64,000 nucleotides of DNA from Nannochloropsis salina CCMP1776 (Eukaryota; Sar; Eustigmatophyceae; Eustigmatales; Monodopsidaceae), in assembly GCA_004565275.1 (NCBI GenBank), contig SDOX01000001.1:799696-863695 (forward strand), in the 5' to 3' direction. The notes under the pieces are model-generated. The model worked only from the letters and a program-made list of their open reading frames with translations. It was not told where the DNA came from and searched no databases. Position numbers and translations under genes: made by a program. Positions 19,353 through 22,300 of the stretch are shown piece after piece (position 1 is the stretch's first letter; each line of letters opens with the position of its first letter).

Positions 19353-22300
19353 TTACTCCATTTCTTCTACCTGTGGTTCTTCCCCACCCCCATCGGCTGG
19401 CCCTGCCCCATCTTCCCCTCCCTCAGGCCCTCCCTCCCCCCCATCCTCTCCACCCGAGGCAGGTACTTTCTCCCGCGCGCCAATGAAAGCTTTCTCCAGC
19501 TCCCCGGCCTTTTCCATGACCTCATCCTTATCCGCGGCTACATTCGAATCAAACCATTCTTGCGTGTCTTCCAGCACTTTCTTTAATGCCTCTTCCTCTT
19601 CTTGCGGCAATTTCCCCTTCAGACCGCCTTCCTCCATGTCGTGCTTGACTTGGAACATGAGCCCCTCCAGATGATTTCTACGGATATGTCAACGATACAA
19701 AACATGATTAGAAGCTCACTCTAAGTGCAAAACGAGGTGCGACAAAGCTATGACCACAAAAAATGAACATGATAAGAACCGAGGGGCCGTAAAACATCGT
19801 ATCAGAAACACACTACAACCCTTCCCACCGCATACCTTGCGTCCACGCGTTCTTTCTCCTTTTTGTCCTGTTCCGCGAATTCCTCGGCCTCCTTCACCAT
19901 GCGTTCGATCTCGTCTTCGCTCAGTCGACCTTTCTCACTCGTGATCGTGATGCTCTGTGTCTTCCCACTATTCTTCTCCACCGCTGAGACCTGCAGAATG
20001 CCGCTCGCATCCACGTCAAAGGCGACTTCGATCTGAGGTCCGCCTCGCGGCCCCCCAGGAATACCGCTGTGATCAAAGACGGAGGATAAAAAATGCACCG
20101 ATTGTACACAAGACCGATGGATGGAATGGGTTTTTCCAACAAGAAGACACTCACACACATGGAAAGCGTGTCCAGTCGGAAACGCGTCAAGGCAAATAGG
20201 ACACGGGAAAGTGAAAATACCTGAGCTCAAACTTGCCCAAAAGCCGGTTGTCCTTCGTCATCGTACGCTCTCCTTCATAAACCTAAGGGACACGTCACAT
20301 CATATGAATATATAAGAAAAAATGGCATCCTTCCATCATGAAAGCCTCCTTCTAGCTTTCATCCCTCCTCCTGCTCTCCTTCCGTTATGCTTCCCACCTG
20401 AATCAGGACACTGTTCTGGTTGTCGCTGTAGGTGGTGAAAATCTGCTTCTTACAAGCCGGAATGGTCGTCCCACGTTCAACCAGCTTCGTCATGACCCCC
20501 CCGACGGTTTCAATCCCTAACGACAAGGGCGCCACGTCCAGAAGCACGATGTCCTTGGTCGCGTCGGCGGCGGCGCCTGCGTAAAAGAAACGCAGCAAAC
20601 AAATAAGGGCAAGCATAAGTGGTACAGGCAGAGTGAGCGCGCCATGCAAAAAGGTTTAATGGTCGTCAAAGCGAAACGAGAGAGAGCAGTAGTGAAACAT
20701 CCTACTAAGTACTTGAGGGGACCAGAGACGTACCGGACAGAATGGCCGCTTGGACGGCCGCTCCGTAGGCAACCGCCTCGTCTGGGTTGATGCCCTTGTT
20801 TAACTCTTTCCCGTTGAAAAAGTCCGAGAGGAGGGCTTGAACCTGTGCAAAACAAACGTCCGACGTGGGGTCGGGATAGACGGAAGGGAGACAAGAAAAG
20901 CTTGAAATTTTCCTCGTCATCCCTGTATTACACACAGACAAAAGGGCATGAACGAACACACGAGGAAGGTAGCAGGCACACACCGCTTTCATGTACAAGA
21001 CAAGCACAGAATTGAGAAGCGAACATATAAATGAGGTCTGTGTGCTCTATGGTTATCCCTCTGCACGTCCTGGCTGCAAGCAGCATCCGTCTAAGGGTGG
21101 GAATATAGAGCGGACACAAAAAGAGAGGAACCTGGACCGGAGTCTCGATCCTCTTTACAAGAACAACGAGTCTCAACAGCCCTCCCCTTCTCCCATGCCC
21201 CTATGCTATCGAGCTGTCTGCATGCGCCTATACCTCACGAGCGAGGCCCCTCTCCGAGGAGTGAGACCACTCAGCGCGCAGTTTGCAGGCGGTGGCCGGT
21301 AACCCTGGCCTGTGTAAACCAGGGCGGTGCCACCCAGCTCTCATCTCAAACCCTCCCTCGTCCATACCCTCTAATCCTCCCTACCTTGGGAATGCGGGTG
21401 GATCCCCCTACCAACACCACCTGATCCACCTCCTCTTTGCTCATGCCCGCGTCTTTCAACACCTGCGAGAGCAAGGTTGAGGAAACGTGAGACGACAACG
21501 TCAGGCCATCCGACGACTTCATGACGACGTAGGCACTCTTTGTTTCTGGAACATCCCACGTAGGAGCTGACATGCCACCCCCTCCTCCTATGCTGCTTTG
21601 CCCGCCACCCTCTCTTGATACGCCTGTTGGACAGCTTTTCGAGGCAGGATCTCGGCACCTTTCTTTCCAACTCATGGTCATCCCCCCCGCCTCCCCGCCC
21701 CTCCATCTCTGTGTCTTCCACTCCCTCCCTCCCTCCCCCGCACCTGCGCCACGGGAGCCAAGGTCCTTTTGAAGAGATCCAGGTTCAATTCCTCAAACTT
21801 AGCCCGCGAAATGGGCAGGGACAAGTCAATGCCTTGAGAAAGCGCCTCGATCTGGAGATTAAAAATGTCATTGAGGGGGAAAATGGAAAGGAAGGAGGCA
21901 GGAGAAGGGGGGGAAGAATGGAAAGGAAGTGAGGGAGGGCTTCGAGTCCACCCAATTCCCCACAAAGGGCACGCATTTCCTGTATGCTCTATGGTTATCC
22001 CTCTGCACGTCCTGGCTGCAAGCAGCATCCGTCTAAGGGTGGGAATATAGAGCGGACACAAAAAGAGAGGAACCTGGACCGGAGTCTCGATCCTCTTTAC
22101 AAGAACAACGAGTCTCAACAGCCCTCCCCTTCTCCCATGCCCCTATGCTATCGAGCTGTCTGCATGCGCCTATACCTCACGAGCGAGGCCCCTCTCCGAG
22201 GAGTGAGACCACTCAGCGCGCAGTTTGCAGGCGGTGGCCGGTAACCCTGGCCTGTGTAAACCAGGGCGGTGCCACCCAGCTCTCTCATAAACCCTAAAAT

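Follow-up and report, generated by a model that had tools for sequence, protein, structure and literature searches.

In this study, we found that an Hsp70 gene of Nannochloropsis salina is predicted to carry, in each of two of its introns, one gene for a box H/ACA small nucleolar RNA (snoRNA) of the U17/snR30 type that is about 307 nt long, and we set the probability of this reading at roughly 0.83. U17/snR30 is an RNA that helps to build the small ribosomal subunit. The gene lies in a stretch of 64,000 nucleotides (hereafter, the window), for which an earlier note had proposed U17/snR30-like H/ACA snoRNAs, and that proposal is supported here by an H box, an internal hairpin, the distance between the 3' pocket and the ACA box, the spacing of the m1 and m2 motifs and a Utp23 gene. 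We file the element as a known RNA type in a new host gene, and the change in its m2 motif as the most testable point.

The host gene occupies 19353..25101 on the minus strand of the window, read by eye from a putative ATG start codon to the stop. It has many introns, and its product, spliced by eye, matched the Pfam HSP70 family with 834 bits. Copy A of the element is in intron 11 (20843..21384, 542 nt) and copy B is in intron 9 (21852..22335, 484 nt), both on the minus strand with GT...AG ends; these coding-intron numbers were assigned by eye on the Hsp70 gene sequence. The core of the host Hsp70 is of the cytosol type, with HSPA1A as its top PDB relative (831 bits, and 794 for a 606-residue BiP construct), and in front of it is an N-terminal leader that is hydrophobic. 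The protein has EEME as its C-terminal end, where neither EEVD nor HDEL is present. It may be a form of Hsp70 that belongs to the ER or to a plastid-surrounding compartment. In addition, another intron of the gene contains two 24-nt direct copies that are 92% alike (23654-23707).

The two introns each carry one copy of a direct repeat with a 300-nt core (21038-21337 in intron 11 and 21980-22279 in intron 9), and both copies are on the minus strand in the orientation of the host, as had been noted earlier. The repeat had been described as free of differences in introns 9 and 11, and the repeat and its introns were confirmed but not the complete identity, as 299 of the 300 positions agree; the sole difference, where copy A has C (21042) and copy B has T (21984), falls in the two-base spacer before the ACA box. 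By eye, GAGAG extends the identity 5 nt further in the 5' direction. When GAGAG is counted in the unit, the copies start 42 nt (intron 11) and 51 nt (intron 9) from the 5' splice sites, which agrees with the previously given distances, and the core without GAGAG starts at 47 and 56 nt. The view that the intron flanks are unrelated held for the 3' flanks, which gave no convincing alignment, but not for the 5' flanks, where short patches such as AGGGTTT are common to both introns. Because of these patches, both copies may have originated from an older intron duplication that diverged later. The repeat and the ~307-nt RNA predicted from the structure have nearly the same ends, which are a few bases apart at most.

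The predicted RNA extends over 21036..21342 in copy A, based on the repeat and the structure with inferred ends from GAGAG to ACA+3, and over 21978..22284 in copy B, based on the repeat and the full-length fold; all coordinates of its parts are likewise on the minus strand. Its order is a branched 5' domain, an H box, an internal hairpin, a 3' hairpin and an ACA box. On the sense strand, the whole element is more stable than its shuffled versions (z -2.20, 1 of 100 as stable), versus z -0.63 and 31 of 100 for the antisense strand. The 130-nt 5' domain (copy A, 21211..21340; copy B, 22153-22282) forms two sub-hairpins under a GAGCTG/CAGCTC closing stem, and its stability was reached by 3 of 300 shuffles (z -3.07; antisense strand, folded alone, z -1.74). 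When the full length was folded, this closing stem appeared in the minimum fold of copy B but not in that of copy A with its flanks, where the 5' end of the RNA is paired with the 3' flank. The H box AUAGCA (21204..21209 and 22146-22151) fits ANANNA and follows the 5' stem by 1 nt. The internal hairpin region of 92 nt (21112..21203 and 22054-22145) was equaled by 1 of 300 shuffles, with z -2.96 for the sense strand versus -0.34 for the antisense strand (each folded alone).

The 68-nt 3' hairpin (21044..21111 and 21986-22053) has a 7-bp basal stem and is not unusually stable (z -1.46, 30 of 300 shuffles; sense -20.2 versus antisense -22.7 kcal/mol). All of its previously described parts were found, namely the stem GCTCTAT/ATAGAGC, the m1-like ATATTCCCA (21098..21106 and 22040-22048) and the m2-like TAACCAT (21049..21055 and 21991-21997). 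The ACA box (21039..21041 and 21981-21983), which had been placed 3 nt after the stem, begins 2 nt past it, and the 3' end of the RNA is placed at ACA+3; in box H/ACA snoRNAs, three nt separate the ACA from the 3' end. Counted on the predicted structure, the pocket-to-ACA distance is 15 nt (copy A also has an ACA at 13 nt), and in box H/ACA RNAs the distance from the top of the 3' pocket to the ACA is 14-16 nt (PMC7601244, excerpts). Excerpts of the same source give U17 the domain order seen in the element, with a 5' domain that likewise has two stems in human U17, and list lengths of 325 nt in S. pombe and 606 nt in S. cerevisiae. The internal hairpin between the H box and the 3' hairpin is also a feature of both yeast and human U17/snR30.

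The two short motifs that give the element its proposed identity are close to the U17/snR30 consensus, in which m1 reads AUAUUCCU(A/G/U) on the basal side of the 3' pocket and m2 reads AAACCAU opposite m1 (PMC7601244, excerpts). Each had been reported as one change away from this consensus, and this is what we observed. The intronic m1 AUAUUCCCA keeps the six pairing letters and has C instead of U at position 8, and the intronic m2 UAACCAU keeps five of its six pairing letters and has U instead of A at position 1; both positions are invariant in the 14 of 14 species tabulated in PMC7601244. The altered position of m1 is outside the six pairing letters, and that of m2 loses one pair unless the host 18S rRNA has changed as well. 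The gap between m1 and m2 is 42 nt, versus 43 nt calculated from the yeast snR30 coordinates (m1 537-545, m2 589-595; PMC9176245, excerpts). Using yeast 18S rRNA as a stand-in, with rm1 GGAAUA and rm2 UGGUUU as read from primers in PMC9176245, 6 of 6 pairs can be formed by m1 and 5 of 6 by m2, and this total of 11 of 12 is reached by random 6+6 letters in 0.055% of cases. Three pattern searches of the assembly did not find the nuclear 18S rRNA gene of the organism, and two matches from one of them look like chance; the assembly may lack the rDNA.

The combination of motifs, stem and ACA is scarce in the genome. The pattern ATATTCC-N25-55-AACCAT occurred at 14 places (reversed control, 6), the same m1/m2 cores with a 56-86 gap also at 14 places (reversed control, 6), and the fully canonical pairing cores at 12 places (reversed control, 20), one of which is also in the N25-55 set. 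Among these 39 distinct places, a 7-bp closing stem together with an ACA was found only in the two intronic copies, and the other 37 have stems of 2-5 bp, as do the 12 canonical-core places even with shifted registers included. In 266 Mb of simulated sequence, 103 exact m1/m2 pairs and 763 pairs with up to one mismatch in each motif were obtained, and none of them had the 7-bp stem with an ACA. For comparison with natural sequence, viral contigs were scanned; the 68 stretches obtained contained 67 matches, which had been pre-selected for four stem pairs. Seven of these matches have a stem of at least 6 bp (two being one sequence), and L092 alone among the seven, with a stem of 7 bp, also has a nearby ACA; with four pairs to start from, the combination of stem and ACA is thus not especially rare. 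The viral matches were treated as chance, and no relatives were found when prokaryote genomes were scanned by pattern. One further place, L006 (C15:947648-947708, minus strand; L006 1501-1561), has a perfect canonical m1 ATATTCCTA and m2 AAACCAT, 45 nt apart, in an apparently intergenic position. It was rejected as a U17 gene with its 2-bp closing stem, no ACA and no Rfam match at E up to 1, and this motif pair is probably due to chance.

The covariance search with the snR30/U17 model, which the earlier note had proposed as a check, gave no match. In the whole window, all Rfam families stayed below their gathering scores, and at the locus, with E up to 10, no snoRNA family was matched, and the MIR528, Six3os1_2 and U6atac matches were far below their gathering scores. 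RF00045 (SNORA73) had no match in the genome at E up to 10, with 29 of 656 candidates scored. The lack of a model match, the host gene and the two altered letters set the element apart from SNORA73; a match to this family is a criterion of a curated model and not a defining trait of U17/snR30. The protein partner of snR30 was also looked for. A PF04900 search of the genome listed one match, an ORF of 254 aa (L101 1441-2205, contig C45), which aligned to the yeast Utp23 of the snR30 snoRNP structure (9g25_K) with an E of 5.5e-07; with this Utp23-like ORF as the single listed match, the search did not recover the related Fcf1/Utp24. The conserved C-terminal motif of Utp23, residues 202-211, is a sensor of the snR30-18S junction (PMC12095548, excerpts), and the yeast residues PNPLSVKKKK correspond to PNPLSVKKSD in the ORF, with 8 of 10 identical and PNPLSVKK in common. 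By sequence similarity, the genome encodes Utp23, a partner of snR30.

Other explanations of the repeat were weighed against the U17/snR30 reading. The element could be an ordinary box H/ACA guide for pseudouridylation whose likeness to m1 and m2 is a matter of chance; the motifs have less support than the H/ACA anatomy, since each is altered at a position that does not vary among 14 of 14 species, and the Rfam U17 model gave no match. However, the internal hairpin, the length and the yeast-like m1-m2 spacing suit U17, 11 of 12 pairs can be formed with rm1/rm2 of yeast, and no better U17 candidate was present among the genome patterns searched. We consider a guide snoRNA unlikely. Somewhat less probable still is a structured intron element other than a snoRNA, for example one that acts in Hsp70 splicing or expression, or a recent duplication without function. 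The element is known from its sequence alone, a single gene holds both copies, each about equally far from the 5' splice site of its intron, and recent copying would suffice to explain their identity. On the other hand, the coincidence of the repeat ends with the predicted snoRNA ends, the H box, the ACA and the m1/m2 geometry would then all be accidental, and direct copies are unable to pair with each other.

Near-identical copies that are close together could also point to a transposable element or an assembly artefact, and we regard this as very improbable. The search for further copies that had been suggested earlier, conducted with the repeat on the 26.5-Mb assembly, gave two matches, a count to be taken as a lower bound, and both lie in the Hsp70 gene; a transposon is disfavored because of this copy number. 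In addition, 19000-24000 was found to contain no inverted repeat as long as 30 nt. An assembly duplication is disfavored by the one-base difference between the copies and by their location in distinct introns with unlike 3' flanks.

Under the preferred U17/snR30 reading, the RNA would be transcribed as part of the Hsp70 pre-mRNA and released by splicing and debranching of the intron, and exonucleases would trim it to the core protected by Cbf5-Nop10-Nhp2-Gar1 on the H and ACA boxes. The mature RNA would work in the nucleolus, where, with Utp23, it would hold the platform region apart until the early steps of 18S processing become possible. The sequence shows the repeat, its scarcity in the genome, the anatomy, the motif geometry and the presence of Utp23, and transcription, excision, binding and function are proposed. 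The two copies would provide a double dose, and their likeness could be kept by gene conversion or could reflect a recent copying event.

The genomic arrangement can be compared with known systems. Vertebrate U17 is intron-encoded and multicopy, as had been stated, and its hosts vary, from U17HG in mammals to six introns of the ribosomal protein S8 gene in Xenopus (PMC7601244, excerpts). The element is likewise intron-encoded and present more than once in its host, but this host is Hsp70. In unicellular eukaryotes, with yeast as the example, snR30 is described as an independent gene in the same excerpts. An Hsp70 host had been suggested as a new arrangement, and this holds for U17 only and not for snoRNAs generally, because the introns of mammalian hsc70 host three copies of U14 (SNORD14) (PMC7277114, excerpts), which is needed for 18S production (PMC7601244, excerpts). 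Among the literature matches listed, the titles and abstract openings did not describe U17 in an Hsp70 gene. Both cases place an 18S-related snoRNA in several introns of an Hsp70-family gene, whereas U14 is a box C/D RNA and the element is H/ACA, and the two arrangements look independent. We tentatively suggest, at somewhat less than even odds, that the only U17/snR30 genes of this organism are inside Hsp70, as an independent mirror of U14 in hsc70, with an m2 that has departed from the otherwise constant AAACCAU. If these are the only such genes, the supply of an RNA essential for 40S assembly would therefore be coupled to transcription of the chaperone.

If true, the departure of m2 from AAACCAU predicts either a matching change in rm2 of the host 18S rRNA or tolerance of an m2 helix of five pairs. 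Particularly, an intron-encoded candidate with an altered m2 from beyond animals and fungi can be a useful test of how fixed the contact between m1/m2 and rm1/rm2 is, and its Hsp70 host, which echoes U14 in hsc70, raises the question of whether chaperone genes are favored hosts for RNAs that help to make the small subunit. Elsewhere in the window, other repeats were observed, including 2.1 copies of a 78-bp unit with 85% matches (43008-43172) and 6.8 copies of the perfect 9-bp repeat CCGACCGGA (58147-58207).
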